64,000 nucleotides of DNA, taken from Allostella sp. ATCC 35155 (GTDB lineage: Bacteria > Pseudomonadota > Alphaproteobacteria > ATCC43930 > Allostellaceae). Of the stretch, positions 27,212 to 64,000 are shown piece after piece; positions within the stretch are counted from its first letter, which is position 1, and every line of letters starts with the position of its first letter. Where the stretch lies: positions 1,670,001 through 1,734,000 of the forward strand of contig AP019701.1 of the NCBI GenBank assembly GCA_006738865.1. The letters run 5' to 3'. A program made the position numbers and the translations under genes. The notes beneath the pieces are model-generated. The model was not told the origin of the DNA, did no database searches, and saw only the letters and a list, made by a program, of their open reading frames with translations.

Positions 27212-27996
27212 TCCCGGCCGACCTGTCCCCCGTCCTGATGGGGTCGCTGGGCAGCCTGGTGGCGGGCCTGGCGACCGCGGTCGGCGCGATCCCCATCCTC
27301 TTCATCGACCCCCCGTCCGAGCGTCGCGAGCGTGTCCTGCTCGGCTTCGCGGCCGGCGTGATGCTGGCGGCCTCCTTCTTCTCGCTGATCATGCCGGGCG
27401 TCGAAGTGCTGGAGGCGGGCGGCAGTTCGTCCTCCCATGCGGCGGCCGTGATGGCCATGGCGGTGCTGCTCGGCGCCGGCGGCATCGCCGCGCTCAACCG
27501 TTTCGCGCCGGTCGATCATGTCGTCATCGGCGAGTCGCGCGATCCGACGGGGATGGTCCGGCGCATCTGGCTGTTCGTCGCTGCGATCACGCTGCACAAC
27601 TTCCCCGAGGGCATGGCGGTCGGCGTCAGCTTCGGCGGCGGCGACGTCGACCAGGGGCTGGCGACGGCCATCGGCATCGGCCTGCAGAACATGCCGGAGG
27701 GGCTGGCGGTCGCCGCGTCGCTGGCGACCCTGGGCTACGGCCGCGCCTGGGCCTTCGTCGGGGCGCTTGCGACCGGCCTCGTCGAGCCGCTGGGCGGACT
27801 GCTGGGCGTGCTCGTCGTCGTCAATGTCGAGTGGCTGCTGCCCTGGGGGCTGGGCCTGTCGGGCGGCGCCATGATCTATGTCGTGACCGCCGAGATCATC
27901 CCGCTCTCTCAGCGCGAAGACGAGAACGGGCACGCCATCATGGCCCTCATGGTCGGCCTCGTCGGGATGATGTTCCTCGACATCGCGCTCGGATAG
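27208..27996 (+). CDS. ZIP family metal transporter (GufA-like)
   Basis: A 262-residue inner-membrane ZIP transporter with about eight hydrophobic helices. The metal-site helices read LHNFPEGMAVG (helix 4) and IGLQNMPEGLAVA (helix 5). The Q in place of H in the second motif is characteristic of the GufA subfamily. It probably moves Zn2+, Fe2+ or Mn2+ into the cytoplasm. A loop after helix 3 (NRFAPVDHVVIGESRDPTG) carries acidic and histidine residues. Coupling to the GNAT gene and the upstream Fur-type palindrome suggests induction on metal starvation. Confidence 0.9.
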   Translation: MIPADLSPVLMGSLGSLVAGLATAVGAIPILFIDPPSERRERVLLGFAAGVMLAASFFSLIMPGVEVLEAGGSSSSHAAAVMAMAVLLGAGGIAALNRFAPVDHVVIGESRDPTGMVRRIWLFVAAITLHNFPEGMAVGVSFGGGDVDQGLATAIGIGLQNMPEGLAVAASLATLGYGRAWAFVGALATGLVEPLGGLLGVLVVVNVEWLLPWGLGLSGGAMIYVVTAEIIPLSQREDENGHAIMALMVGLVGMMFLDIALG

Positions 27997-28031
27997 CTCC
28001 GGGCGCATCCGCCGCGACCGGTGAATTTCCC

Positions 28032-28057
28032 GGAAACCGTTCGCACAGCCCAGCGTT
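28032..28057 (+). promoter_or_regulatory. EcfG-like promoter of the small membrane peptide gene
   Basis: GGAAA (28032-28036) and CGTT (28054-28057) are separated by 17 bases. The general stress sigma factor EcfG of Alphaproteobacteria recognises GGAAC-N16/17-CGTT, so this is a one-mismatch match. It lies 55 bases before ATG 28113. Confidence 0.4.
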
Positions 28058-28112
28058 GTGGAGGCAGTTCCATCGCGCCCGAACAGTGCGGCGCAACAAA
28101 GGAGAGCGAACG

Positions 28113-28193
28113 ATGCCGATCATCCTGTGGCTGCTGGGCGTGCCGATCAGTGTGATCCTGCTGCTGATGCTGTTCGGCGTGGTCGGATTCTAG
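28113..28193 (+). CDS. Small hydrophobic membrane peptide (26 aa)
   Basis: A 26-residue open frame, MPIILWLLGVPISVILLLML followed by FGVVGF, that is almost entirely one transmembrane helix. AAAGGAGAG lies 7 bases before the ATG, an excellent ribosome-binding site, and codon use is GC-rich as in the neighbours. Similar MP-I-LWLLGVP small proteins occur in many Alphaproteobacteria; function is unknown. With an EcfG-like promoter upstream and a small hairpin after the stop it looks like a complete small gene, probably stress-induced. Confidence 0.7.
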   Translation: MPIILWLLGVPISVILLLMLFGVVGF

Positions 28194-28206
28194 CGGGCAA
28201 GCCCGC
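28193..28206. terminator. Short hairpin between convergent genes
   Basis: GCGGG (28193-28197) pairs with CCCGC (28202-28206) over a 4-base loop, immediately at the end of the small peptide gene and 9 bases from the stop of the convergent ATP-grasp gene. No T-run; weak terminator at best. Confidence 0.35.
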
Positions 28207-28214
28207 GACCGGCA

Positions 28215-29195
28215 CTATTCGAGGATCTTCCACAGTCCCGAAAGGTGCCGGTCGAAATCCGGCGGCCGGCCCATCAGGGCATTGCCCGGGCTGAGCGTGA
28301 ACTCGCTCAGGTAGATTCGGTCGCCAACAAGATAGAGGTCGACGCGCACGAAGTTGAATGGCCGCGCGAGCACGAGGACGATGTCGCGGAAGCCGGACGC
28401 GTCCTTCGGGAGTTCCGGCGACACGACGGCGTATTCGTCGGCGTCCTGAAAATCATGCACGCTCAGATCCTCGCGCAGCCACGCGATATGCGAGGTGAGG
28501 CCGATGCGCTTGACCGCGCAGACGCCGGCCAGGACGCCGTTCACCACGGTGCAGTCCCAGGTGACGATCGGGTCCGGCCCGGAGAGGCTGCGCTCCAGGA
28601 AGATCCGGCGCGGAACGAGGCTGTACCACCACTCGCCGTCGCCATAGCCATAGGCGTGGTCGAGCCAGCGCGCGGCCCGCTCGTTCAATTCCTGCCGCTC
28701 CGCCGCGCTCAGGGGGAAGCGGATCTGCGCGTTCATCCGCGAACCATGGCTGGCCTTGAGGAAGTACCAGCCCGGCTCGATCTCCCGGTTGTCGGGCAGG
28801 CGAGGGACTGCGGATCGCCACACCACCTCGGGCAGCAGGACGACCGACTTCAGTTGGCCCGGGATGAAATGCCCGTGCGCGAGCTTGTCGCCCGATTCCG
28901 GCACCTTGGTCAGGGCGAGGAACTTCCGCCAGAAAACCTTCTCCGGATAGCTGCGGGGGTCGAGCAGATCGGGATAGCGCCCGTGCGCCGCGTGGAACTT
29001 CTCCATGCCGTTGGCCATCGCGTGCAGCAGGTCGAAGCCCGAGTAGAAGTCGATTCCGCGCAGAAATCCCGGTGGCGGCCGGCGATGGAAGGGGGCGTTG
29101 AGGGTCTGCGCCAGTCCCTGGATGGCCGCCGCTGCCGCGACGAACTGCGGGGGTGCCGATCTCGGCCGATGAATGGAAAGAGGCGGGCGGGACAT
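28215..29195 (-). CDS. TupA-like ATP-grasp protein, copy 3 of the tandem array
   Basis: A 326-residue member of the TupA-like ATP-grasp family. Features: SGDKLAHGHFIPGQL, then the ATP-binding lysine in GWYFLKASHGSRMNAQ, glutamate in RRIFLERSLSG and the metal-binding end VRVDLYLVGDRIYLSEFTLSPGNAL with D, E and N in place. ATP-grasp ligases join a carboxylate to an amine or similar group through an acyl phosphate; TupA is implicated in teichuronopeptide synthesis. ATG 29195 gives exactly the same length as the two paralogues upstream. It is last in the trehalose/glucan operon after a 77-base gap. Confidence 0.8.
   Translation of the reverse strand: MSRPPLSIHRPRSAPPQFVAAAAAIQGLAQTLNAPFHRRPPPGFLRGIDFYSGFDLLHAMANGMEKFHAAHGRYPDLLDPRSYPEKVFWRKFLALTKVPESGDKLAHGHFIPGQLKSVVLLPEVVWRSAVPRLPDNREIEPGWYFLKASHGSRMNAQIRFPLSAAERQELNERAARWLDHAYGYGDGEWWYSLVPRRIFLERSLSGPDPIVTWDCTVVNGVLAGVCAVKRIGLTSHIAWLREDLSVHDFQDADEYAVVSPELPKDASGFRDIVLVLARPFNFVRVDLYLVGDRIYLSEFTLSPGNALMGRPPDFDRHLSGLWKILE

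Positions 29196-41855: not shown

Positions 41856-41863
<8 letters not shown>
39707..41863 (-). CDS. glgB: 1,4-alpha-glucan branching enzyme
   Basis: A 718-residue GH13 branching enzyme with two N-terminal beta domains (N1, then CBM48 around [24 protein letters not shown]). The catalytic set is in [16 protein letters not shown] (D), [13 protein letters not shown] (E) and [15 protein letters not shown] (D). It introduces alpha-1,6 branches into linear chains made by GlgE. ATG 41863 (MSDATPLD) is chosen because GGAG is 8 bases upstream; ATG 41869 is also in frame but has that sequence too close. It overlaps the treS stop by 8 bases. Confidence 0.95.
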
Positions 41864-45073
<3,210 letters not shown>

Positions 45074-45077
<4 letters not shown>

Positions 45078-47965
45078 CGGGTCGAGGCCTCCGGCGGCGC
45101 CAGGCGCAAGATCGCAAAGGGAAGGTCGGCGGGGTCGAGGCGCAGGCGCTGCCGCTTCCCGGTCAGCAGGAACGGCCGCTCGCGCATAAGGTCGACGGCG
45201 GCGAGCGAACCGTGATCCGGCAGTCCCCATTCCCACAGGGGCAGCTCGAACTCCGCCTCGACGACGGCGTGGGGATCGAGCGAGACGATCACCAGCACCA
45301 TCTCCGCCCCCGGCCCGTCCTGCCGGCCATAGACCAGCACCCGTTCGTCGAAAGCGTTGTAGAAGCGCAGCTTGCGGTGGTCCTGCAGCGCCGGGTGGGC
45401 GCGGCGGATGGCGTTGAGGCGGGTGATCTCGTCGACGATATCGCCCGGGCTGCGCTCGGGGCGCGGCCGGATCTCGTACTTCTCGGAATCGAGATACTCC
45501 TCGCGTCCCGGCAGCGGGGTGCCCTCGCAGTGCTCGAAGCCGGAATAGACGCCCCACAGGCCCGAGAGTGTGGCCGCGAGGGCGGCCCGGATCAGGAAGC
45601 CGGGTCTTCCCGATGTCTGCAGGAAGACGGGGTTGATGTCGGGCGTGTTGACGAAGAAGTGCGGCCGGAAGAAGTCCTTCGGCTCGCCATGTGCCAGCTC
45701 CGTCATGTAGGCCGTCAGTTCGGCCTTGGTGTTGCGCCAGGTGAAGTAGGTGTAGGACTGGCTGAAGCCCAGCTTCGCAAGCCGGTTCATCATCTTCGGA
45801 CGGGTGAAGGCCTCCGACAGGAAGAGGGTGTCGGGATAGCGCGCCTGCACGTCGGCGATGAGCCACTCCCAGAAGGGTAGGGGCTTGGTGTGGGGGTTGT
45901 CGACGCGGTAGGTGCGCACGCCCTCGGCCGCCCAGAACAGCACGATGTCGCGCAGCGCCAGCCACAGCTCCGGCACGGCGGCCGAGGCATAGAAGTCGAC
46001 GTTGACGATGTCCTCGTACTTCTTGGGCGGATTTTCCGCGTAGCGCAGCGATCCGTCGGGGCGCCAGCGGAACCAGCCCGGATGGGCTTTCAGCCACGGA
46101 TGGTCCGGCGAGCACTGGATCGCGAAATCGAGCGCGATCTCCAGCCCTTCGTCGGCGGCGGCGGCGACGAGGCGCCGGAAGTCCTCGATGGTGCCGAGCT
46201 GCGGGTGGATCGCATCGTGCCCGCCCTCCGCGCTGCCGATCGCGTAGGGGCTGCCGACGTCGGCCGGTTGGGGGGTCAGGCTGTTGTTGCGGCCCTTGCG
46301 GTTGGCCTGCCCGATCGGGTGGATGGGCGGGAAATAGAGGACGTCGAAGCCCATGCGGCGGATCGCCGGCAGGCGTCCGACGACGTCGGCAAGGGTGCCG
46401 TGGCGCTGCGCATCGTCGGTGATCGAGCGCGGGAAGAGCTCGTACCAGCTGGCGAACGCCGCCTGCGGCCGCTCGACGGCAAGCGGCAGGGGCGGCTCGT
46501 GGCGGACGAGGAAGCCGCGGGCGTCGGCCGACCGGACGGCATCGCGCGTCGCCGTATCCAGCAGCACCGCGGCGTCGCCCGGATCGCGCTCCAGCCGTTC
46601 GATCGCGCCGGCCAGGACGCGGCCCGCTTCGCCCTCGGCGCGCTCGGCCGCTTCCTCGACCAGAATGCGGCCTTCCGCGATCTCGAGCGTCACGTCGCGC
46701 CCGGCCTTCAGCTTGGCGTCGAGTTCGTGATGGTAGCTGCCGAACTCGTCCCACCAGGCCTCGACCGTGAAGAGCCAGCGTCCGGGCCGATCGACCGCGA
46801 TCTCCGCTGCCCAGCGGTCGTTGCCGACCGGCTGCATCGGCCGGCTCGACCAGTCTTCGCGATCCGCCGGGCGCCAAAGGACGGCTGCCGCCAGTTTCTC
46901 GTGGCCGTCGGCGAAGATGTCGGCTTCGACGCGGATGCGGTCTCCGGCCACCGCCTTGGCGGGAAACCGGCCCGCATCGACGCTCGGCGTGAGCTTCTCG
47001 ATGGCGATGCGCGGCTGGCCGGCCGACTTGCGCGCCGCCTGTCGGCTGGGCGCGGTGCGGGCGCGGACCGGCGTCGCCGCTTCGGCCATCAGCAGGCGCA
47101 CCTGACCCGTGCCGAGTTCCATCGTGTCTGCCGACGCCAGCGGCCGCAGCGGCGCGAAGGCCCGGCCTGCGGCGGCCGGAAGCATCTCGGGAATTTCGAC
47201 GGGCCCGGAGGTGACGCCGATCGCGATCACCAGTGCGCGCGTCGCATGGCGGATGTCGGACGCGTCGGCGCGCAGGAGCAGTGCCGGCCGCCCGCGCGCG
47301 GGCGGCAGGAAGCGGACCTCGCCCCGGCATTCGAGGCGGGCAACGGTACCGGCCAACCGGTTCGCCGCAGCGATGCGCGGCCCGTCCAGCTCCGCAATGT
47401 CGGCGATTTCGAGGAAAATGCCATCGCCGGCCGCCGCCGCCAGCGCCGCCAGCCAGTCGGGCCCGTCCGAACGCAGCGTGCAGCGCACCGGAGCGATCCG
47501 GCGCAGCGCCTCGTACTCCTCCGCCAGCCACGATTCGCGGCCGTTCCACCACGCGGTGGACGCGAATGCGCTGGCGTAGCCCACCGGCGCGAGGCGGGCC
47601 AGAGCCTCGCGCGGTGCCCCCGGCGTCCAGGCATGGACGGCGAATGCACCATCGCGGGCCAGGTCGGCGACGGCGTCCGCCCACCCCTCCGCCGACATGG
47701 CCGTGCCGCGGACGCCGTCGGCGCCCGCCGCCTGTGCGCGGCGAGCGGCGTCGGGATCGGCGGCGTCGGCCAGTATGTCGATCCCGGCCGCCCGGGCCTG
47801 GTCGCGCAAGCCTGGGACATGGGTCGCATCGGGTACCAGCAGCGCCTGGAAGCCGGCGTCCGAAACGGCGCGGATGAGGGGCTCCGCCGCGGGCGGCGAG
47901 ACGAATGCGGAACGCCCCAAGGCACAGATGCCATAGGGCGACGCGTTGCGTGCGGGTCGGATCAT
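45074..47965 (-). CDS. glgE: Maltosyltransferase GlgE with long N-terminal extension
   Basis: A 963-residue alpha-1,4-glucan:maltose-1-phosphate maltosyltransferase. The canonical enzyme occupies about 318-963: [49 protein letters not shown], nucleophile D689 in [10 protein letters not shown] and acid/base E718 in FLSEAFTRP. Residues 1-315 are an extra region ([50 protein letters not shown]) that reads like a decayed barrel without obvious catalytic residues. It extends glucans by maltose units at the non-reducing end. First gene of the operon. ATG 47965 is only 9 bases after the -10 of an EcfG-type motif, so a leaderless or very short-leader mRNA is likely. Confidence 0.93.
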
Positions 47966-52297: not shown

Positions 52298-53494
<1,197 letters not shown>

Positions 53495-53500
53495 TGCCCT

Positions 53501-53534
53501 CCCGGGCGTCCGGCGCTACCGTCGGACGCCCGGG
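53501..53534. terminator. 12-bp stem-loop between convergent genes
   Basis: CCCGGGCGTCCG (53501-53512) pairs perfectly with CGGACGCCCGGG (53523-53534) over a 10-base loop. It lies 6 bases after the ene-reductase stop and covers the last codons and stop of the convergent glycosyltransferase gene, so it could end transcription from both sides. No T-run is present. Confidence 0.6.
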
Positions 53535-56500
53535 ATGTGGGTGACCGCGGTGCGGTAGCCGCGCGCCTCTGCCAGCAGCACCGGCAGCCGCTCGATCGCG
53601 TGCGGCAGGGTCCCGTCGAGCGGCAGCGGCTCCGGCGGGAAATCGTCCCAGCCGAGGCCGAGATCGAACAGCGGGGCCAGCGCGTCCGGCCGCCACCAGA
53701 ACATGGCGCCGGCCGGGAACTCGATGTGGCCGGGCAGCGGCCCCAGTCCGAGACGCGGCCCCAGCCGCCGGGCGATGGCGAGGTTCGATTCCGCGCCGAA
53801 GCGCTCGTCGGGCCCGGCAGTTTCGGGATCGTGCCAGTTCCAGCCGAAGAGGTGCGGGTCGTCGGCATGGACGAGGCCGAGGCGGGGATCGTCCGCGAAG
53901 CGGGAGAGGATGCGTGCGGCCATCGGCGCGAAGCCGCCGAGCAGGTTCTCCAGCAGGAACCAGCGCCAGGAGTGGCGATCGTCGTGGCCGAGATGGACGC
54001 TGCGCTTGGTGTGGAAATGGCCGACGACGTCGTAGCGGCCCGGCCACCCGGCGTCCGGGCCGCACAGCAGCGCCCCGAGGTTCCGCCCGCGGTTGGGGAC
54101 GAGGCGCATCTCCGGTTCCGGCAGGCGGGCGACCGCTGCGGCATCGCGCAGATGGCGTGCCTTGGCGTCGTCGTCGGTCGTCACCAACAGGTCGTAGGCG
54201 AGGTGGCGGACATCCGGCAGTCGGGCCAGCAGGTCGCGAGCGACATCGACGTGATGGACATGGAGATGGATGGCGACGCGCAGGCCCTGCGGAAATCGCG
54301 CCGGGCGGAGCGTCGGCCGGATGACCTCGCGCAGCCACGGTCCGGCCGGGCGGCCGGCCCGGATGAAGTGAGCGGCCGGGTTCTGCTCCGCCGCATCCGC
54401 CATGGCGGCCTCCGCATAGATTCCCGGGTGGAATCCGGGAAAGGGACGGCGCGGCGTCCCGCGGGCGGCGTCGGCCAGGACATGCAGTCGCACCGCCTCC
54501 CTGCGCGGCTCGGGTCGGGTGCCGGGCGGCACCTGGATATCCGAGTCGAACAGCTCGTCCGCGATCAGGGTCGCGATGTCGCGCTGCATTCCGGCCATCG
54601 CCGCAGCGGCCGACTGCAGCAGCTCCGACAAGGCGGCGACGTGGGCGATCATGGTCGGCCCGCCGCCCGCCAGCGCCTGCTGCCGCCGGCCCAACGGATG
54701 CCGCCGGCCGCCGCCGGCGAGGATGGCGGCCGCGAGCCGCGCGAACGCCTCCGGATCGGCGGCGACGGCCTGTGGCACCTCGGTGAGCAGCGCCGCCGCG
54801 GCGGCCTCGGCCGTGGCGAGGACGGGAATGCCGCGCGTCATGGCATCGAGCGCGAGGATCGGCAGATCTTCCGGCCCCGTCATCAGCACGAGGTCGGCCA
54901 GGCGCAGGGCCGCCTCGTAGGATCGGGTCGCCGGCAGCGTCGCCGCATCGGGGACGTCGTCGAGCGGCGCCGCTTGGACGCCCTGGCGGTCGTCCCCGAC
55001 CCATACGAAGCGGACGCGGCCGGGCGGCAGGCGCCCTGCGAGTGCGGCGGCGCAGTCGCGGAATCGCGCGCTGCCGCCGCCCGCTCCGGTCGCGCCGAAT
55101 CCCATCACGACAGCCGCCGCGCCGGGCCCTTCCGCGAGGCCGAGCGCCGCCCGCAGGCGGGGCAGTTCGGCGCGGATCTCGTCCTTCGTGCGGGCCATCG
55201 AATAGTCCGACGCGCCGACCGCGGCGGTCCGGGCGAGCGGATGGCCGGCGACGTCCAGTCCCGGCCGCGCCGCCAGGACCGCCGTCGCCGAGGCGGCGAC
55301 CGCGAGGTCGTCCGTCCGGCGCGCCACCAGGACGCTCGGCAGCAGCATCCGCTGCAGGCCGGAGTGGAAGGCATCCGGGAACGCCCCGATCGTCACCACG
55401 CCGGCCAGCGGCAGTTGGCCGTGCAGTTCTCCCACGAGGTCCGCCAGCAGCGCGGGGTCGGCCGCGCGTTGCGGGTCGGCGACGACCACCCGTCCGAATG
55501 CCGTCTGCAGCGTGTCCAGCATGCGCCCGCCGCGACGGGCGAGCAGGATGGGGGCGTAGGTCCGGCGCAGATGCCCCGCGATGTTGAGCGCGAGGATCGC
55601 GTCCGCGCCGCGATGGCATTCGTCGAGCACGACGAGGATGGGCGGCCGCCCGTCGGCATTCCCCCCGATGCGGGCCAGTGGTGCCTTCTGGCGCACACGC
55701 TGCGGCGGCAGGTCCGCGGCACCGCTGCCGCCTGAGATCTCTCGCGCGATGTGGGCGACGTCGGGTCCGGCACATGCGAGCAGCCGCTCGAACAGCGTGT
55801 CGACGTCGGCGAGCGCGGCCAGGGCGGGGTTTCGGACCTCGCCGCGCAGGATCGCCTCGACGAAGCGCCCGACCACGGCTTTGCCTTCGTCCCGGGCATC
55901 GGGTGCGAGGTCGCGGAACGAGTTGTCGCCGTGGAGGCGGTAGCCGTAGAGCGGCCGGTCGACGAACGCCGGCTCGCCCAGCCGGCATGCCGACAGCACG
56001 AAGTCCCAGTCATGGCACAGCGGCAGGTTGCGGAAGCCGCCGATCCGCCGGTGCAGGGCGCGGGTGAACACGAGGTTGCCGGTCGAAACCGCGCGGTTGA
56101 CGCCGAGAAACGCGGCGGAGACCGTCGGATGATCGCGCACGCCCGGCGGCAGGGCGGCCAGACGCGCGGCGAACGAGGTACGATCGGGTCGGCCATCGGC
56201 GTCGATGCAGGCAATGCCGGTGAAGGCCAGTTCGTGGCCGCCGCGGAGGGCTGCCACGCAGCTCGCAATGCGGTCGGAATGATAGAGGTCGTCGGAGTTG
56301 AGGATCGCCAGGATGTCGCCAGATGCGAGGCGAAGGCCCGTTTCGATGGTGGCGGCGGCACCCTGGTTCCTGTCGGCGACCTGCACGACGACGTGGCGGA
56401 AGCGCGAGGCGAACAGCGGATCGTCGGTCAGTTCCCGGAGGGCGTCGGCCGAGCCGTCGGTCGAAGCGTCGTCGATGACGATGATCTCGATATCCGCCCA

Positions 56501-56581
56501 CGTCTGGGCATGGACCGAGCGCAGCGCGCTGGCGATGAAGCGGCGGTGATTGAAGACGGGAATGACGACCGAGGCCAGCAT
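53516..56581 (-). CDS. Multidomain glycosyltransferase: GT2, GT-B-like and RgpF-like
   Basis: A 1021-residue cytoplasmic or membrane-associated polysaccharide enzyme. Residues 1-230 are a GT2 domain (VVIPVFNHRRFI, IDDASTDGS and metal-binding SDD at 96-98). Residues about 315-640 resemble a GT-B glycosyltransferase (GDDRQGVQ, ADLVLMTGPEDLPILALDAMTRGIPVLATAEA). Residues 716-750 carry an FHPGIYAEA...H-F-I-R-A-G-R-P-A-G motif common in these giant proteins. Residues 768-1015 match rhamnan synthesis F (HLHVHHVDVARDLL, YDLLVTTDDD, NRGRNLGALLCG, GHFHTKRS). It probably builds a rhamnose-rich surface glycan. Start ATG 56581 is 7 bases after the WbsX-like stop; last gene of its operon. Confidence 0.87.
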   Translation of the reverse strand: MLASVVIPVFNHRRFIASALRSVHAQTWADIEIIVIDDASTDGSADALRELTDDPLFASRFRHVVVQVADRNQGAAATIETGLRLASGDILAILNSDDLYHSDRIASCVAALRGGHELAFTGIACIDADGRPDRTSFAARLAALPPGVRDHPTVSAAFLGVNRAVSTGNLVFTRALHRRIGGFRNLPLCHDWDFVLSACRLGEPAFVDRPLYGYRLHGDNSFRDLAPDARDEGKAVVGRFVEAILRGEVRNPALAALADVDTLFERLLACAGPDVAHIAREISGGSGAADLPPQRVRQKAPLARIGGNADGRPPILVVLDECHRGADAILALNIAGHLRRTYAPILLARRGGRMLDTLQTAFGRVVVADPQRAADPALLADLVGELHGQLPLAGVVTIGAFPDAFHSGLQRMLLPSVLVARRTDDLAVAASATAVLAARPGLDVAGHPLARTAAVGASDYSMARTKDEIRAELPRLRAALGLAEGPGAAAVVMGFGATGAGGGSARFRDCAAALAGRLPPGRVRFVWVGDDRQGVQAAPLDDVPDAATLPATRSYEAALRLADLVLMTGPEDLPILALDAMTRGIPVLATAEAAAAALLTEVPQAVAADPEAFARLAAAILAGGGRRHPLGRRQQALAGGGPTMIAHVAALSELLQSAAAAMAGMQRDIATLIADELFDSDIQVPPGTRPEPRREAVRLHVLADAARGTPRRPFPGFHPGIYAEAAMADAAEQNPAAHFIRAGRPAGPWLREVIRPTLRPARFPQGLRVAIHLHVHHVDVARDLLARLPDVRHLAYDLLVTTDDDAKARHLRDAAAVARLPEPEMRLVPNRGRNLGALLCGPDAGWPGRYDVVGHFHTKRSVHLGHDDRHSWRWFLLENLLGGFAPMAARILSRFADDPRLGLVHADDPHLFGWNWHDPETAGPDERFGAESNLAIARRLGPRLGLGPLPGHIEFPAGAMFWWRPDALAPLFDLGLGWDDFPPEPLPLDGTLPHAIERLPVLLAEARGYRTAVTHIPGVRR

Positions 56582-56588
56582 GACCCGG

Positions 56589-58352
56589 TCACGCAAGCTC
56601 GCACTGGATCGTCTGGGCCAGGTAGGCCGTGCCGTCGGCAGTCGCGAGCCCGACCCGCACCTGATAGGCGCCGGGGGCGAGGTCGATGACATCGACGCGG
56701 ACGGCAAAGCCGCTGCGCTCGGCAGGTTGCGTGGAACTGCCGAACAGGGCCTCGCCGACGTCGCGGCGCTGCATCCCGTGGTCGGCGATGACGAGCAGCG
56801 GCTCCTCCTCGGACGTTCGGGTCGGGACCAGCGCGACGAGGCAGCGCGGCGGGCCGTCGGGATGCGGGTCGTCGTCGACGATCCAGCCACGGACGATCAG
56901 CGGATCGCCGATGCGGTGCGGCATTGTCGTGGCGATGGGGTACTCGATGTGGCCGTGGACGCTGCCGCGGCGCAGCCGGGCCGGCTGCCCCAGCTCGGAG
57001 GCCGGCACGGGCCGGCGGGGATCCAGCCCTCCGACGTGGCGCAGCCAGTCGGCATGGTAGCGGCCGAGATAGCCGGTCGCCGCCTCCGCCGCGCGCAGAT
57101 GCTCGTCGAGCGCCTGCATGATCTCGACGGCATGGCGCAGGAGGCCGTCCTCGCCGTCGATCCGTCGTTCCAGCTCCTGCATCGCTTCGCGGGCGCGCTC
57201 GAGCGGCATCCGCCCGACCCCCGATCCGCCCTCCATGCCCGGCCCGCCGACCGCGCGTGCGCATGCCCGCAGCCAGTTGCGGCCGAACTTCTGGTCGGGC
57301 TCCAGATGGTTGCCCTCGCCCCACTCGTTCCAGGCGTTGATGAAGACGAGCCGCCGGTTCGGCCGTTCGGTGAGGCGGGCGCGCGCGACGAGGGCGGCGA
57401 GCCAGCTTTCGAACCGCTCCGGGGTGGCGCCGAGGAAGATGCTCGCATCGGCTCCGCGACGGGCCGTGTTGTCGAAGCCGACCATCGCCGTCCGGAAGGT
57501 GGGGAAGGGCGGCTCCGGCTGGCAGAGATGGAGGGTCAGCAGTGCCTCGTAGTCATAGGCGCCACCCTGGAAGGGCTCGGTCCAGGGGACGCTGGCGGTG
57601 ATGTCGGCGGCCGTCAGCGTCAGCGGCGGGAACTCGACGGCGAAGTCGAAGCCGTCGCGCGGGGCGTCGGTGTACCCGAAGCCGAGGACGGCAGCGATGC
57701 TGAGGTCGATTCCGTGGTCGGATGCCATACGGCGCATCGCGGCCAGCGCGTCGGCGATACCGGGAATGCTGCCGGGCCGATAGATCAACAGCAATGGCCG
57801 GTCATCGACCCGCAGGTAGCGCCGATCCTCGAGGTAGGGCAGCAAGTCGACCACCAGCCGATCGAAGCAGCCGGGCGTATAGGACTGTTCGACGATGACT
57901 TCGGACTCGGCGCCGTCCCACCTCCGGGTCCAGCTCTCGTTCGCCCAGCACAGGCAGAAGGGCATGTCCGGGCGGCCCGAGGCGAGCATCGCCTCCAGTG
58001 GTCGCTCCAGCAGCCGGCGGCCGTCGAACCAGTAGAAATAGTGGCAGAAGGCGTGAATGCCGTGCTCGCGCGCGATCGCGGCCTGCTGTTCCATCACCTC
58101 GGGCAGGCGGAGGTCGTAGAAGCCGAGTTCGGCGGGCAGGTGGGGCTGGTGGTGGCCCGGGAAGAGTGGCTTCGCCCGGGCGACATTGGTCCATTCGGTG
58201 AAGCCCTTGCCCCAGGCGGCGTCGTTCTCGGGAATGGGGTGGTATTGCGGCAGGTAGAACGCGACCAGCCGGACGTCCGGCTGGGGGGGCGGCTCGGCGG
58301 GCGGCTCTTCGGTGGGCTCTCCGGCCGTCATGGTCGGATCGTGAGCATTCAC
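56589..58352 (-). CDS. WbsX-like glycoside hydrolase 99-type domain protein with C-terminal module
   Basis: A 587-residue protein. A proline-rich N-terminus (residues 9-27) is followed by the WbsX/GH99-like barrel, about 28-385: VAFYLPQYHPIPENDAAWGKGFTEWTNV, HAFCHYFYWFDGRRLLERP, LCWANESWTRRWDG (acidic active-site pair expected here) and INAWNEWGEGNHLEPD. WbsX-type proteins occur in O-antigen loci as glycosyltransferase or hydrolase partners; the exact reaction is unresolved. Residues 485-587 form the shared C-terminal module (VRGW, RDV, RSGF, GAYQVRVG). GTG 58352 overlaps the sulfotransferase stop by 4 bases (GTGA); ATG 58331 lacks a ribosome-binding site. Confidence 0.82.
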   Translation of the reverse strand: MNAHDPTMTAGEPTEEPPAEPPPQPDVRLVAFYLPQYHPIPENDAAWGKGFTEWTNVARAKPLFPGHHQPHLPAELGFYDLRLPEVMEQQAAIAREHGIHAFCHYFYWFDGRRLLERPLEAMLASGRPDMPFCLCWANESWTRRWDGAESEVIVEQSYTPGCFDRLVVDLLPYLEDRRYLRVDDRPLLLIYRPGSIPGIADALAAMRRMASDHGIDLSIAAVLGFGYTDAPRDGFDFAVEFPPLTLTAADITASVPWTEPFQGGAYDYEALLTLHLCQPEPPFPTFRTAMVGFDNTARRGADASIFLGATPERFESWLAALVARARLTERPNRRLVFINAWNEWGEGNHLEPDQKFGRNWLRACARAVGGPGMEGGSGVGRMPLERAREAMQELERRIDGEDGLLRHAVEIMQALDEHLRAAEAATGYLGRYHADWLRHVGGLDPRRPVPASELGQPARLRRGSVHGHIEYPIATTMPHRIGDPLIVRGWIVDDDPHPDGPPRCLVALVPTRTSEEEPLLVIADHGMQRRDVGEALFGSSTQPAERSGFAVRVDVIDLAPGAYQVRVGLATADGTAYLAQTIQCELA

Positions 58353-59770
58353 TGGGATCCCAGCTCGATCATGATGCGATGATCTGCGTACACGATCCCG
58401 TCGGGGCGGGGGAAGCCCAGTCGCAGTTGCCAGCGGCCCCGCGCCATGCCGCCGGTGTCGACGGCGACGCGAAAGCCGCTCTGCATCGTTGCGGCGGCCG
58501 GCAGATGCGGGTGGGCTGCGGCGACGTCCGATCGTGTCTCGGTCCGCCGCAGCCGAACCACCATGTCCGAGGCGGCGGTGCCGTCGACCGGTTGCAGGAT
58601 CGCCACAGGGCCGGCGGCAAGGCGACCGGGATAGATCGCCCAGCCGGCCAGATCCAGTTGCCGTGCGGCCTGCGCGGGCGCGCCCTGGGCACCCGGCGTG
58701 GGCGAGTCGAAATGTCCCGGCACGCGATGCGGTAGATCCGGACCCAGATTCGGCATAAGGCGGCGGGGGATCGGCGACTGCGGCGGCGATACCAAGTCGG
58801 ACACCAGCTCGGGGATCTGGAGAATGGCCCCGACGAGGCCGCCCATGCTTCGCAGCTGCCGGGCCACCGGTCGAGGCAGCCGCCCGCGGACATGCGGCGC
58901 GAGCGCCGGGTCGCTCTCGATGGCGTCGAGCTGCCGCACATATGCGGCGTCGAGCGCGGCGTCGTGCTCGGCCGTCAGGAACGTCGGCTCGTCGATGCCG
59001 GATCGGTTGATCGGCATGGCGGCGCAACGCGCCAGCCAATGACGCACGATGTCCGGCGGCGCGCCCTCGCGGCGGAGCGCGCGCGCCAGTTCGATGATCG
59101 GGGCCGGCAGGCCGGCGTTGAGGCGCGGCTCGCCGGCCGGCCGGTCGATCGTCAGCTCCGGCGCGATCCAGTGGAGGACCGAGCCGACGATATCGGCGCG
59201 CACGGGGGGATCGTCGTAGCTGCCGATGCGCAGTTCGCCGTGCGGCGACAGGTGCGACCACCGCCGAGCGATCTGGAGGTAGTCGACGTCGCGGCTGGCC
59301 AGGAATTCGTCGAAGGTCACTTCGAAGCCGGCCACGATGTGCGTCCGATAGAGGGTTTCCAGGGCGTCACCCGTGCGGCGCATGACGACCACCGCCACCG
59401 GATCGAAGGGGGCGAGGCGCTCCGCCAGATCGGCGACCGCTTCGTCCGGGAGGGACGAGAACTCCTCGGAGGACAGGATCGCGCGCTCTGCTCCGCAGCC
59501 GGCGATCTCCTCGACCAGCCGCTCCAGCATCTCCTCGCGCCCGATCGCCTGCCGGCGATCGGGGAAGCGGCCGTTGATGACCCACGGCAGCCCATGGTGG
59601 CCGCCGCCGAACTCGGCATGGCTGCCGGTGAGCGGCACGTAGAGCCCGGCCGCCGCTAGGTCGTCCCGATGCCGGATCAGGAAGGACTGAAGGCTTGTCG
59701 TGCCGGTCTTGGCGACGCCGATATGGACGAAGAGGCGGGGACCTCGCACAGGCCGATCGACCGCAGTCAT
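58349..59770 (-). CDS. Sulfotransferase-family protein with C-terminal module
   Basis: A 473-residue P-loop sulfotransferase-like protein. The 5'-phosphosulfate-binding loop is HIGVAKTGTTSLQ (residues 16-28). A later R-x-x-x-D/S region (AVVVMRRTGDALETLYRTHI) sits where 3'-phosphate-binding residues are expected. It would transfer sulfate from PAPS to a sugar hydroxyl of the glycan made by neighbouring genes. Residues 371-473 are the shared C-terminal module (LAGWAIYPG, SDVAAAH, QSGFRVAVD). It is a clear paralogue of the C-terminal half of the next gene upstream. ATG 59770 is the start closest to the family opening; the open frame to 60028 is a shadow. Confidence 0.8.
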   Translation of the reverse strand: MTAVDRPVRGPRLFVHIGVAKTGTTSLQSFLIRHRDDLAAAGLYVPLTGSHAEFGGGHHGLPWVINGRFPDRRQAIGREEMLERLVEEIAGCGAERAILSSEEFSSLPDEAVADLAERLAPFDPVAVVVMRRTGDALETLYRTHIVAGFEVTFDEFLASRDVDYLQIARRWSHLSPHGELRIGSYDDPPVRADIVGSVLHWIAPELTIDRPAGEPRLNAGLPAPIIELARALRREGAPPDIVRHWLARCAAMPINRSGIDEPTFLTAEHDAALDAAYVRQLDAIESDPALAPHVRGRLPRPVARQLRSMGGLVGAILQIPELVSDLVSPPQSPIPRRLMPNLGPDLPHRVPGHFDSPTPGAQGAPAQAARQLDLAGWAIYPGRLAAGPVAILQPVDGTAASDMVVRLRRTETRSDVAAAHPHLPAAATMQSGFRVAVDTGGMARGRWQLRLGFPRPDGIVYADHRIMIELGSQ

Positions 59771-59816
59771 TCCGTCCGCTCCGTCGCGACCGTCGATGAC
59801 GTCCCCCCGGTGCGCC

Positions 59817-62195
59817 TCATGGCGAGCCGACCTCCACCACCAGGCGGCCGGCGGCATGGACCAGCCCGGCTGTCGTTCCGCAGACCACCCGCAGGTCGTA
59901 GCGACCGCAGGGCACGGCCGCAAAGTCCAGGCTCGCCCGAAAGCCGCTTCGTGACGTGAATTCCTGTGGGACGGCGGGAAATGTCGCCGCGACATCCGGG
60001 CGTCGTGTTCCGACGTCCAGCGGCGCAATCAGTTCGGCCGCAGCCGTGCGATCCAGGGGGCGCAGCAACAGGTACCATGGCGCATCGGCCGATCCGGCAT
60101 GGAATGCCCAGCCGGCGAACATGACCCGGTCCGCGCGCTTCAGTGTGATTACGCCTTGGGTCGCCTCGGGCCGATCGACGCTGCCGGCGCATCCGGCCGG
60201 CAGGTCCGATCCCAGGCCAGGTAGGAGGCGACGCGGCAGCCAATCCGCCTCGAATGTGGGACTGGGGGTGCCGGACATGATCGACGGCAGCTCGAGCAGG
60301 GCGTCCGCCGTGCTGGAAATGGTCCGCGACCGTCGCGGCTCCGGCCGCGGCAGCCGGCCAAGGATGTGCGGTGCGAGCTGCGGGTCCGCCTCGATCTGGT
60401 CCAGCTGGCGGCAGTAGTCGACGTCGATGGTGTGCTCGAACTCTGCGGAAAGCAGCCGCGGCTCTGCGATCTGGGCGCGCGTGAAGGGCAGCTTGCCCAT
60501 CGCCTCCAGCCAGGCATCGGCCCGGGCCCGTTCGACGCCGGAGGCGCGCAGCGATCGAGCTAGCTCGATCAGGGCAGCCGGCAGACCGATGTTCAATCGG
60601 GGCTCAGCCGCGCCGGTGGGGGGCGGTGGTGTGTGGCCGAGCCATGTCAGCACGGTCCGCACGATGTCCCGACCGACTGCCGGATCATCATAGCTGCCGA
60701 CCAGCATTGACGACACGCCCGGCAGGCGGCGCCAGCGTCGAAGCAGCGAGAGGTAATCGTAGTACGGGCGTTGCCCGTGGTTCATGAACTGGCGCAGCGG
60801 AAGGTCGCCGCCGGAGACGACATGGGTGCGGTATCCGCCTTCGAGGACATCCCCCGGTCGGCGCAGAATGATGATCGGAACGATATCGAACCCGTCGAGC
60901 AGCGCGCCCAGCCGCTCGACCTGCCGGTCGTCGAGCAACGAAAAATCCTCGGACGACAGGATGGCGTTCGCGGTGCCGGCGGACTCCAGCTCGGAGCGCA
61001 ATCCATTCCAGAGCGTGTCCGGATCAATGCCGGACAGCCGCTCCGGGTACTTGGAATTCAGTGTCCACGGCAGGAGATGGTGCCCGTCGAACTGTCGGGG
61101 AACTCCCGCCCGTGGAACGGTCAACCCGGACGCGGCCAACGTGTCGCGGTTGCGGGCGAAATAGGACTGAAGGCTCGTGGTTCCGGTCTTGTGGAGACCG
61201 ATGTGCATGAAGAGCCGGGGTCGGGCGGGCGTTCGACCGGCCGAATGTCCTTCCCTCGTGGCCGCGGAGCGGGGGCGCGGCTTCGCACTCAGGAAACTGT
61301 AATAGCTCTCCAGCCGTTCCCGGCCGACATGCTCGGCGATGCGGCCGGCCATCTCCGCCATGAGTTCGCGCACCGGTGCGCTTCGCGCAGCCAGCGTGTC
61401 GTCCATGCAAGTGCTGGCAGCGCCGTCACGGACCGAAAAGAAGTCCGCGCCATACCGTCGGCTCCGCTGCTCCTGGAAAGGGGATGTGCCGCCGCCGCGC
61501 TGCCGCTTCGCATCGAACTCCTCGGCAGACTTGAGCATGTAGTGATGCAGCCGAATGTCGCTGGCGACGATTTGACTGGCGCGGCCATGGGGGGCCTCCA
61601 TCTCGACCAGATCGGAGAGGTCGGCATGTACGTAGCGACCGCCCTCGACCCCTGGGATATGGGCATGTACACGCACGATCCGCTCGGGACGAACGATCGA
61701 TTTGACGAAGTGATGCTCTTGTGAGTCGAGTGGTTTGCGGTGCGTGAAGCGGGAGACAACGAGGTCCGGCCGGTATCGGCGTTCGCCGGAAGAACCGAAA
61801 ACGAGCTGGTTGATACCGACTGCGGAGACGTCCGGATCCAGGCCCCGTAGCCATTGCGCGAGCGGACGGTTGCCAGCCGAAAACAGGAACTCGTCCAGGT
61901 CCATGGTGGCGACGAAGGAGAAGCGCCCGCGCAGTTTCGCGTAGCCGTCCTCCAGGGCCGAGTAGTGCGGCGAGCGGCCTTCGATCGACGGCCAGTACGT
62001 CACCTCGACCGGGTAGTATCGGCCGAGGGCGGACAGGATCTGCCCGGTGCCGTCGACGCTCTCGTTGTCGTAGATGCAGAAGTGCTCGACGCCGGCCAGC
62101 AGGTGGAAGGCGACCCATTCGAGGACGTAGCGGGCCTCGTCGCGGGCGATCGTGCAGATGGCGAGCGTACCGCTGCGGCTGTCGGGGTGATTCAT
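59817..62195 (-). CDS. GT92-like glycosyltransferase fused to sulfotransferase, with C-terminal module
   Basis: A 792-residue three-part protein. Residues 1-305 are a GT92/DUF23-type glycosyltransferase: CTIARDEARYVLEWVAFHLL, YDNESVDGT and the metal-binding DLD at 99-101 in ATMDLDEFLF. A short linker (RPRSAATREGHSAGRTPAR) leads to a sulfotransferase-like domain with HIGLHKTGTTSLQ (331-343), SSEDFSLLDD and IILRRPGDVLEGGYRTHV. Residues 690-792 are the shared module (FAGWAFHAG, RPDVAATFP, RSGFRASLD, CGRYDLRV). One protein could therefore add a sugar and sulfate it. ATG 62195 is 25 bases after the FkbM stop; a short tandem repeat lies between. Confidence 0.83.
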   Translation of the reverse strand: MNHPDSRSGTLAICTIARDEARYVLEWVAFHLLAGVEHFCIYDNESVDGTGQILSALGRYYPVEVTYWPSIEGRSPHYSALEDGYAKLRGRFSFVATMDLDEFLFSAGNRPLAQWLRGLDPDVSAVGINQLVFGSSGERRYRPDLVVSRFTHRKPLDSQEHHFVKSIVRPERIVRVHAHIPGVEGGRYVHADLSDLVEMEAPHGRASQIVASDIRLHHYMLKSAEEFDAKRQRGGGTSPFQEQRSRRYGADFFSVRDGAASTCMDDTLAARSAPVRELMAEMAGRIAEHVGRERLESYYSFLSAKPRPRSAATREGHSAGRTPARPRLFMHIGLHKTGTTSLQSYFARNRDTLAASGLTVPRAGVPRQFDGHHLLPWTLNSKYPERLSGIDPDTLWNGLRSELESAGTANAILSSEDFSLLDDRQVERLGALLDGFDIVPIIILRRPGDVLEGGYRTHVVSGGDLPLRQFMNHGQRPYYDYLSLLRRWRRLPGVSSMLVGSYDDPAVGRDIVRTVLTWLGHTPPPPTGAAEPRLNIGLPAALIELARSLRASGVERARADAWLEAMGKLPFTRAQIAEPRLLSAEFEHTIDVDYCRQLDQIEADPQLAPHILGRLPRPEPRRSRTISSTADALLELPSIMSGTPSPTFEADWLPRRLLPGLGSDLPAGCAGSVDRPEATQGVITLKRADRVMFAGWAFHAGSADAPWYLLLRPLDRTAAAELIAPLDVGTRRPDVAATFPAVPQEFTSRSGFRASLDFAAVPCGRYDLRVVCGTTAGLVHAAGRLVVEVGSP

Positions 62196-62198
62196 CAG

Positions 62199-62234
62199 AG
62201 GTTCAGTCGGCCCCAAAGGTTCAATCGGCCCCGG
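62199..62234. repeat. Imperfect tandem 18-bp repeat
   Basis: Two adjacent 18-base units, 62199-62216 and 62217-62234 (AGGTTCAGTCGGCCCCAA type), match at 15 of 18 positions. The second covers the FkbM stop codon. It is probably a small slippage duplication at the gene junction. Confidence 0.6.
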
Positions 62235-62961
62235 GAGATTCCAGCCGGGCATGGGCATCGAGCCAGCCGCTGACAAGAAACTCCTGCCGTCGTCGCAGAT
62301 CGAGAAATGCAGCCGCGAAGGCGGTGGCCTCGTCGAGGGAAAGCCATTCCCGCCCGGGGCTCTCGCGACCGAACGGCCCGCTTGCGTCCTTCCAGGCGGT
62401 CGTGGGGACGAAGCGGCCTTCGAGCGGCGGGTTCGGAAGGCGCACTTTCCACAGCATCGTCTGGTTGACCAGCTTGAAGGAGCGATATCCCGCCGCTGCA
62501 AGCGCGGCGAGACCCGACCCATCGTGCAGCTCGAGCGATACATAGCGGGGAAGTTCAGCCTGTCCCGCGAGCGTCGCGGCGGCCAGTGCGTCGTAGCCTT
62601 CGATATCGATCTTGGCGAAGTAGGGGACGCCGTGACGGGCGAAAAGGGTCGGCAGGGTTACCGCCTCGACCTCCAGAGGCGAGACGACAGCGCCGGCGCC
62701 GGCACCCCAGTGCGGCCGCAGCGAACCCCAGGCAGGTTGCTGCCGATTGCAGAAGAATGTCTGGCGCCCATCGCGATCGGACACGGCGCACGGAAGGATC
62801 GTCAGGCGCCCGTCCGCAATCTCCGGAGCGAACGCTTCGCGGGCGATGGCTGCGGTCGCCGGGTCGGCCTCGATCGCGATGACCCGGAAGCCCTTTGCCA
62901 GATAGAAGCGCGTGTCGGCCCCATCCGCCATGCCGACGTCGAATACGAGATCCCGATGCAT
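62221..62961 (-). CDS. FkbM family methyltransferase
   Basis: A 246-residue SAM-dependent methyltransferase of the FkbM family. The SAM site is VFDVGMADGADTRFYLAKGFRVIAIEADP (G-x-x-x-G variant with A for G, then acidic E-A-D), and the family motif PYFAKIDIEGYDALAA follows. FkbM-like enzymes O-methylate sugars or fatty-acid-like groups; here a surface-glycan sugar is likely. The C-terminal SLDEATAFAAAFLDLRRRQEFLVSGWLDAHARL is helical and not part of the core. Unlike its neighbours it does not carry the shared C-terminal module. ATG 62961 is the only good start; there is no strong Shine-Dalgarno. Confidence 0.85.
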   Translation of the reverse strand: MHRDLVFDVGMADGADTRFYLAKGFRVIAIEADPATAAIAREAFAPEIADGRLTILPCAVSDRDGRQTFFCNRQQPAWGSLRPHWGAGAGAVVSPLEVEAVTLPTLFARHGVPYFAKIDIEGYDALAAATLAGQAELPRYVSLELHDGSGLAALAAAGYRSFKLVNQTMLWKVRLPNPPLEGRFVPTTAWKDASGPFGRESPGREWLSLDEATAFAAAFLDLRRRQEFLVSGWLDAHARLESPGAD

Positions 62962-62995
62962 GGAGGCTCTGCCTGTGACCGCCGAGGGCTGGGCT

Positions 62996-63001
62996 ATTCT
63001 A
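62996..63001 (-). promoter_or_regulatory. Possible -10 box before the FkbM gene
   Basis: TAGAAT on the minus strand (5 of 6 to TATAAT) lies 34 bases before the FkbM ATG. The best -35 at 18-base spacing (TGGCGA) is poor. Otherwise the 186 bases between FkbM and the next gene show nothing but a GGGCAAC/GTTGCCC hairpin at 63116-63134. Confidence 0.25.
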
Positions 63002-63115
63002 TGTCGCCGGTGTGACGAATCGCCAGCCGGGCGAGCGGCCCGGTGCGCCGGCCAGTCGCACTCCGGCCGGTACGGCAGGCGGTGACGGAGGAGTCGCTGC
63101 CAGGTTTCGGTGGCC

Positions 63116-63134
63116 GGGCAACGCCCTGTTGCCC
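63116..63134 (-). terminator. Hairpin after the partial gene at the right edge
   Basis: GGGCAAC (63116-63122) pairs with GTTGCCC (63128-63134) over a 5-base loop, 13 bases beyond the stop of the upstream partial gene. No T-run follows on the minus strand, so this is a weak terminator or an attenuator ahead of FkbM. Confidence 0.35.
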
Positions 63135-63147
63135 CTGCGGGAGACCT

Positions 63148-64000
63148 TCAGACGATCCGCATGGGGCGGTCTACGGCGGTCCAGACGACGCCCAATTCGG
63201 ACACCACGCCAGAACGAATGCGGTACCGGCCGAGCGGTATGGACCGAACGTCGAGCACGACATCGAACCCGGAACGTCGCGTCACGGTCTCTGAAAGCCC
63301 TGGGAAATGCTGGACGATATCCGGCCTCGACCGGCTGTCGTCGACGACGACCAGATAGTCGAATATCGAAGGATGGTCGGCCGAATGCAGGCGTATGAGG
63401 CGCTCCTGGTCCGGCCGACCGTTCGCATCGAACAACCAGCCTGCGAGCCGCAACGGTGTCGCCGCAGATACCTTGATCTCGCCCTCCGACCTCGGGGGAT
63501 GATCGATCGCTCCGTGGGCACGCCTGCCGCTCGACCCGGCCATCGCTTCCCAGAGCCGCGTCGGGATCGGCACCAGTGCGGGCCTTGGCCGGTGCAATAG
63601 CGGGGTTGCGGCCCGGGTCGCGCAGGCCCGTTCGGGAAACAGTTGCCGCAGCCAGTGAAGCATGGGCCCGCGGAACCGCCGGATCGCGATGTCGTGCTCG
63701 GGCGCCAGGTCATAGGCCTGTGCGGGCCGGGTCGAGCTGCGACCCGACGAGGGGCCGGCCGGCGGATCGGGGAGGTATCGGTTGATCTGTCCCCAGCGAA
63801 AGGTCGGCGGTCGTGCGGAAAGGCCATGCCCGATCGGACGACGCAGTTCGTCCACGAGTGCCCCGGCTTCGAGCCGGGCGAGATGGCCATCGAACGAGGC
63901 CACCGCCCAAGGGCGAGCGATGATTCCACCGGGCCCGGTGCCGGTGGCGAAACGAGCGCGATCGGTCAGCAGGCGGTCGTCGTCCGGACCCGACGCGAGA
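63148..64000 (-). CDS. Partial protein ending in the shared C-terminal module
   Basis: The frame is open from the stop at 63148-63150 to the window edge, so the N-terminus lies beyond base 64000 (about 283 codons seen). The visible part starts LASGPDDDRLLTDRARFATG and has no catalytic domain I recognise. A linker (ALVPIPTRLWEAMAGSSGRR) leads to the last 102 residues, which are the shared module of this cluster: LAGWLFDANG, SRPDIVQHFP, RRSGFDVVLD, LGRYRIRSG. By position and architecture the missing part may be another glycan-modifying enzyme, possibly a sulfotransferase or glycosyltransferase, but that is a guess. A GTG at 63903 is in frame but interrupts a clearly coding stretch, so it is not the start. 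Confidence 0.7.
   Translation of the reverse strand, partial: LASGPDDDRLLTDRARFATGTGPGGIIARPWAVASFDGHLARLEAGALVDELRRPIGHGLSARPPTFRWGQINRYLPDPPAGPSSGRSSTRPAQAYDLAPEHDIAIRRFRGPMLHWLRQLFPERACATRAATPLLHRPRPALVPIPTRLWEAMAGSSGRRAHGAIDHPPRSEGEIKVSAATPLRLAGWLFDANGRPDQERLIRLHSADHPSIFDYLVVVDDSRSRPDIVQHFPGLSETVTRRSGFDVVLDVRSIPLGRYRIRSGVVSELGVVWTAVDRPMRIV

Follow-up and report, generated by a model that had tools for sequence, protein, structure and literature searches.

Among comparable arrangements the one described best is TarS, the Staphylococcus aureus wall teichoic acid glycosyltransferase, whose C-terminal end carries CBM-like domains of Ig fold that form trimers and increase both affinity and processivity on the polymer (PMC5156392). 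Another is GalS1, the plant beta-1,4-galactan synthase, where a GT92 domain is joined to a small N-terminal accessory domain, CBM95 (PMC11062476). Here we analyse a 64,000-nucleotide stretch of DNA from Allostella sp. ATCC 35155 (the window), in which four glycan enzymes end in one and the same module. As in TarS, C-terminal accessory domains of predicted Ig fold sit on polymer-decorating enzymes, and the GT-A domain of TarS is itself a structural match (5TZ8, Z 9.0). The TarS domains, however, are in tandem, whereas the window modules are single and are also found on sulfotransferase and WbsX-like enzymes; a sequence relation between the C1/C2 domains of TarS and the modules was not detected, in that no TarS chain appeared among the PDB sequence matches at E ≤ 10. 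GalS1 is the best structural match of the glycosyltransferase (GT) domain (8D3T, Z 16.4).

The glycan island and its enzymes

The enzymes lie in an island of seven genes, all in one direction on the minus strand and almost touching, which runs from 53516 to 64000 in the window and on to genome position C1:1735912, between an old-yellow-enzyme-like gene (52337-53494) and mtgA. In the congener G003 the site is empty: the same two flanking genes are only 348 bp apart, and a short non-homologous stretch (L143:18427-18774) is the counterpart of window position 53495 to genome C1:1736030. The island is thus an accessory block. Its gene types suggest that the product is a surface glycan; no transport gene was found inside it. 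Elsewhere in the window, adjacent minus-strand ORFs at 41856-47965 read as a GlgE-like protein and a trehalose synthase-maltokinase fusion, that is, as a putative GlgE-type alpha-glucan pathway.

The first island gene (53516..56581, minus strand) encodes a GT2, GT1 and RgpF-like protein of 1021 aa from its ATG, in which no module was found. The WbsX-like gene (56589..58331, minus strand) matches PF14307 at E 3.6e-124, with the first ATG at 58331 and an in-frame GTG at 58352. The gene for a 473-aa sulfotransferase (58349..59770, minus strand) comes next, and then a gene assigned from Pfam and homology to a GT92-sulfotransferase-module fusion of 792 aa (59817..62195, minus strand; 811 aa from 62252). 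An FkbM-family methyltransferase of the same operon (62221..62961, minus strand) carries no module. The right-edge gene (63148..64000, minus strand) is cut by the window and is complete at genome C1:1733148-1734707; its 519-aa product consists of an N-terminal module of a second kind (N-type, see below), which lies beyond the window, a GT92/GT2_4 domain and the C-terminal module (C-type). A module is present on five of the seven island proteins.

The GT92 model (PF01697) scores 60 bits on the GT92-sulfotransferase fusion and 26 bits on the right-edge protein, against a cut-off of 23. The 473-aa protein has no match to a Pfam sulfotransferase model, nor to any Pfam family at E ≤ 5, and we assign it as a probable sulfotransferase from the predicted fold of its homologue and from a motif. 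Specifically, the sulfotransferase domain of the G001 homologue (residues 355-649) has the same fold as NDST1, the heparan sulfate N-sulfotransferase (Z 15.4), and the bacterial 3RNL (Z 14.6), although identity to these is only about 13-17%, and the 5' P-loop-like motif KTGTTSLQ is present and aligned in three of three homologues. The catalytic parts ahead of the modules had been described in an earlier note on this DNA as unrelated, which is correct for three families on the four proteins but not for two pairs among them. Over 479 aa that include catalytic domain, linker and module, the sulfotransferase shares 42% identity with the GT92-sulfotransferase (46% in their catalytic parts), and the GT92/Glyco_tranf_2_4 domain is common to the GT92-sulfotransferase and the right-edge protein. 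These shared domains reduce the four carriers to three catalytic families, and there could be as few as two independent acquisitions of the module among them.

The shared C-terminal module

The segment common to the four proteins lies where the earlier note had placed it, at residues 485-587 of the WbsX-like protein, 371-473 of the sulfotransferase and 690-792 of the GT92-sulfotransferase, and in the final 103 residues of the frame at the right edge. All six segment pairs score above chance (Smith-Waterman Z 8.1-28.0), and we reject chance similarity because none of 300 shuffles scored as high for any of them. BLAST also links the whole proteins through the shared segment, and a search of the 5.34-Mb genome with a profile of the four sequences returned, at E ≤ 0.1, exactly these four places and no further copy of the C-type. 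Hence, from pairwise scores, matching positions and the genome profile search, the core observation stands. The length of 102-103 residues does not, since the unit is about 120 residues long and begins with a G-x-x-D/E-x-P stretch, about 18 residues ahead of the start first given, that forms the first strands of the module in the predicted structure. Likewise, the four align at fixed positions as claimed, but with indels of 1-3 residues within one loop rather than gap-free; 13 of 125 columns are invariant, and identity among the four is 25-34%. The modules correspond to minus-strand positions 56592..56951 (WbsX-like protein), 58352..58717 (sulfotransferase) and 59820..60185 (GT92-sulfotransferase fusion), each placed by alignment, profile and pairwise scores, and 63151..63513 (right-edge GT92-like protein), placed by the same three means and also modelled by AF2.

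Family and fold of the module

A named family for the module can be ruled out in the Pfam, NCBIfam and PHROG libraries, which give no match, as had been anticipated. Pfam Big_7 (PF17957, curated cut-off 24.1 bits) matched none of the four modules at E ≤ 1, and none in the search of their own genome at E ≤ 10. The module is nevertheless no orphan. An alignment of the four window modules with two from a congener (A4), whose first row is the right-edge module that was also folded by AF2, matches in hhalign an alignment of tandem RPDV modules of GT2 proteins from the same order (A3) at 97.3% (E 2.4e-11), and the A3 profile, which holds no window sequence, recovers the window modules at E 1.8e-5 to 0.05. 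A4 also matches modules from two further proteins, a PMT_2-type membrane glycosyltransferase and a GH26 protein with a signal-like N-terminus (96.5%, E 7.8e-10), and in the matching region these two exceed the Big_7 cut-off, with 26 and 44 bits, respectively. Column-shuffled hhalign controls score at most 20, versus 57-65 for real C-type pairs. Judged by these profile comparisons, the module belongs to a divergent, unnamed branch of the Big_7-related Ig modules of bacteria, without being a Big_7 member by score. The GW...G.H/Y pattern is common to both, but compared with Big_7 the window modules have a longer loop, an R-D-V/I ... S-G-F stretch is present in them, and the V-D-G turn is absent.

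The beta-sandwich that had been suggested for the module agrees with its AF2 model (pLDDT 88.9, pTM 0.79). The best structural matches of the model in VIA are Ig/Fn3-like sandwiches (Z up to 9.4), which include the Ig-like domains of a mannanase (6TN6, Z 9.4) and of the cellulosomal CbhA (3PDG, Z 7.8), and several of them are accessory domains of polysaccharide enzymes. Foldseek with the same model gave no match below E 0.001. The predicted fold is that of an Ig-like beta-sandwich.

Searches of PDB sequences with the tandem and N-type alignments gave no useful match, a literature search for enzymes of this kind with Ig-like or Big_7 modules found no paper, and no glycan-binding relative with both a solved structure and detectable sequence similarity came to light, the only weak match being the C-terminal region of the Enterococcus endolysin EfAmi1 (E 0.05). 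This match (8C4D chain residues 219-289, E 0.046-0.063) is below significance; it extends over about 70 residues, includes GWLV and RPDV-x-x-A, and falls in a region that is absent from the solved structure, in which 184 residues are modelled. That this region of EfAmi1 binds glycan is a proposal of its authors (PMC10167349).

The N-type unit, GWARD...ELFVWFDGR...R.DL..GIGDG.H.F, opens both the right-edge protein and the product of the next gene, and the genome has five copies of it. The right-edge protein and its 404-aa GT92 neighbour account for the two island copies; the remaining three belong to a glycosyltransferase, a GT2-type protein and a membrane-type protein with a coiled coil. The comparison of N-type with C-type modules was negative with few sequences and became significant with 21 and 17 sequences: the 21 N-type sequences match the C-type superfamily at 94.4% (E 8.6e-8) and the window type alone at 86% (E 4.9e-6), with shuffled controls scoring below 16. 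The profiles indicate that the two types are related as remote homologues. For CBM95 as a candidate homologue of the N-type module, the structural comparison reached only the GT domain of GalS1, the best match (8D3T chain 155-418 against the 826-aa model in VIA), and left CBM95 aligned with neither module.

Distribution, gene neighbourhood and divergence

The earlier note had suggested that the module could define a wider set of enzymes elsewhere in the genome, and relatives of it occur on further glycan enzymes, also in other genomes. Overall the carriers are WbsX, GT92, sulfotransferase, GT2, PMT_2-type membrane GT and GH26 proteins, and the N-type is also found on Bacteroidota sulfotransferases, a pyruvyl transferase and several GT2 proteins. 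What these carriers have in common is a polysaccharide substrate and apparently not a compartment. Two GT2 proteins (L018:5692-10530 and L019:1353-5915) each contain four tandem RPDV/SGF Ig-like modules, and one protein (L123, G098:C47 about 27,900-28,500) combines a signal-like N-terminus, several Ig-like modules of the superfamily and a GH26 domain. In the plasmid collection, neither single modules nor a tandem pair as queries found a match. A class-wide search of 385 genomes found the module in its own genome only, where with just 11 candidates scored per genome absence means little, and absences are likewise weak in the genome searches at n above 100, which scored about 10-45 candidates per genome.

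In each of the five WbsX clusters examined, the enzymes that carry a module lie next to one another, with five such proteins each in G000 and G001 and two each in G018, G027 and G038. The equivalent cluster of the congener G001 encodes a WbsX protein with a C-module, three GT92 proteins with N-modules and a single chain made of N-module, GT, sulfotransferase and C-module. A WbsX-like protein with a C-type end adjoins a GT2-GT4 protein with three N-type modules in three genomes that belong to a different family within the order, and the WbsX-like protein of G077 combines an N-type module with a weak C-type match (E 0.0017). A set of small proteins (L144:8851-9762, L146:8173-8952, L148:9839-10666, L149:9036-9779 and L150:3173-4039) has an N-type module followed by what reads in the sequence as a coiled-coil-like stretch and a hydrophobic C-terminal stretch, and might form a membrane hub. 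Where they lie on long contigs, they are at most about 6 kb from a module-bearing enzyme in all four cases, two of these partners being weak profile matches.

The clustering and the coiled-coil membrane-type proteins make assembly a serious rival explanation, in which the modules would join the modifying enzymes into one complex, either by pairing as homo- or hetero-oligomers or by binding a membrane protein that itself bears a module. The WbsX module is acidic and the sulfotransferase module basic, as pairing would allow, and TarS trimerises through such domains (PMC5156392). The divergence of the modules points the other way. Similarity among modules is no higher within a genome than between genomes, and the window WbsX module is 44% identical to the WbsX module of the other species but only 25-28% to its own neighbours. 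This grouping by enzyme also stands against the copying of one module onto all enzymes within the genome. Moreover, the membrane-type protein lies outside the island of the window, about 200 kb away at genome C1 about 1,933,850-1,934,760, and some carriers look secreted or membrane-bound, so that one intracellular partner cannot serve them all. We consider assembly possible but doubtful. The broader proposal, that C- and N-type modules are one Ig-like family serving as a glycan-synthesis assembly system in which the small membrane-type proteins gather module-bearing enzymes via module-module contacts, seems to us improbable.

The earlier note had also envisaged docking to a common partner or binding of a common glycan. 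A single partner or a common glycan site is not indicated by the data: besides the low identity and the kinship of the WbsX module with other WbsX modules, net charge ranges from -8 to +2 among the four (-8 and -10 for WbsX modules, +2 with pI 9.9 for that of the sulfotransferase), and no binding-site signature is conserved across them. Those columns that stay constant throughout the superfamily look related to the fold, and among the conserved aromatics, W26, F83 and Y/W97 occupy its fold positions. That the modules follow their own enzymes weakens the idea of one common partner in particular.

It is also conceivable, but we think unlikely, that the module is a structural spacer, with no role beyond keeping the enzyme stable or soluble or capping its C-terminal end, and that its recurrence reflects duplication and fusion inside the island. 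The sulfotransferase domain is indeed widespread without the module, as the matches to 80 named relatives do not extend beyond query residues 1-302 and in none of them does the sulfotransferase carry the module; the sulfotransferase and the GT92-sulfotransferase have linker and module in common by descent; and divergence is faster in the module than in the catalytic domain, WbsX being 44% identical between the two species in the module versus 66% in the catalytic part. A mere cap, however, would not usually occur on at least three catalytic families here and on others elsewhere, nor at either end of a protein and in tandem arrays of three or four.

Discussion

We tentatively propose, with somewhat less than even confidence, that the module is an accessory Ig-fold domain on the C-terminus of polymer-modifying enzymes which, by analogy with TarS, contacts the polysaccharide and is tuned to each enzyme. 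Beyond the homology, predicted fold, distribution and clustering described above, the function of the module would most likely be tethered acceptor-holding as in TarS, to which enzyme assembly is a close rival. Because the carriers share a polysaccharide substrate but apparently no compartment, contact with the glycan is favoured over one common protein partner. Ig-like domains are often mere spacers, which counts against a glycan-holding role.

In the mechanism that we put forward, the module would sit behind a poorly ordered linker (residues 652-700 of the 826-aa homologue, pLDDT 31-45 in one full-length model) and touch the growing or finished polysaccharide weakly, and it may self-associate as well. 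The sulfotransferase, glycosyltransferase and WbsX-like domains would thereby be kept near the same chain and act on it repeatedly, with each module adapted to the enzyme that carries it and not to a partner common to all.

It is largely an open question by what means bacteria hold several cytoplasmic decorating enzymes to a single polymer. As a small, easily expressed domain, the module lets glycan binding be weighed against complex formation, and it fills a gap in the annotation of these proteins, a segment to which current family libraries assign nothing. A portable module that marks glycosyltransferases, sulfotransferases, pyruvyl transferases and WbsX-like proteins provides a sequence handle for enzymes that act together.
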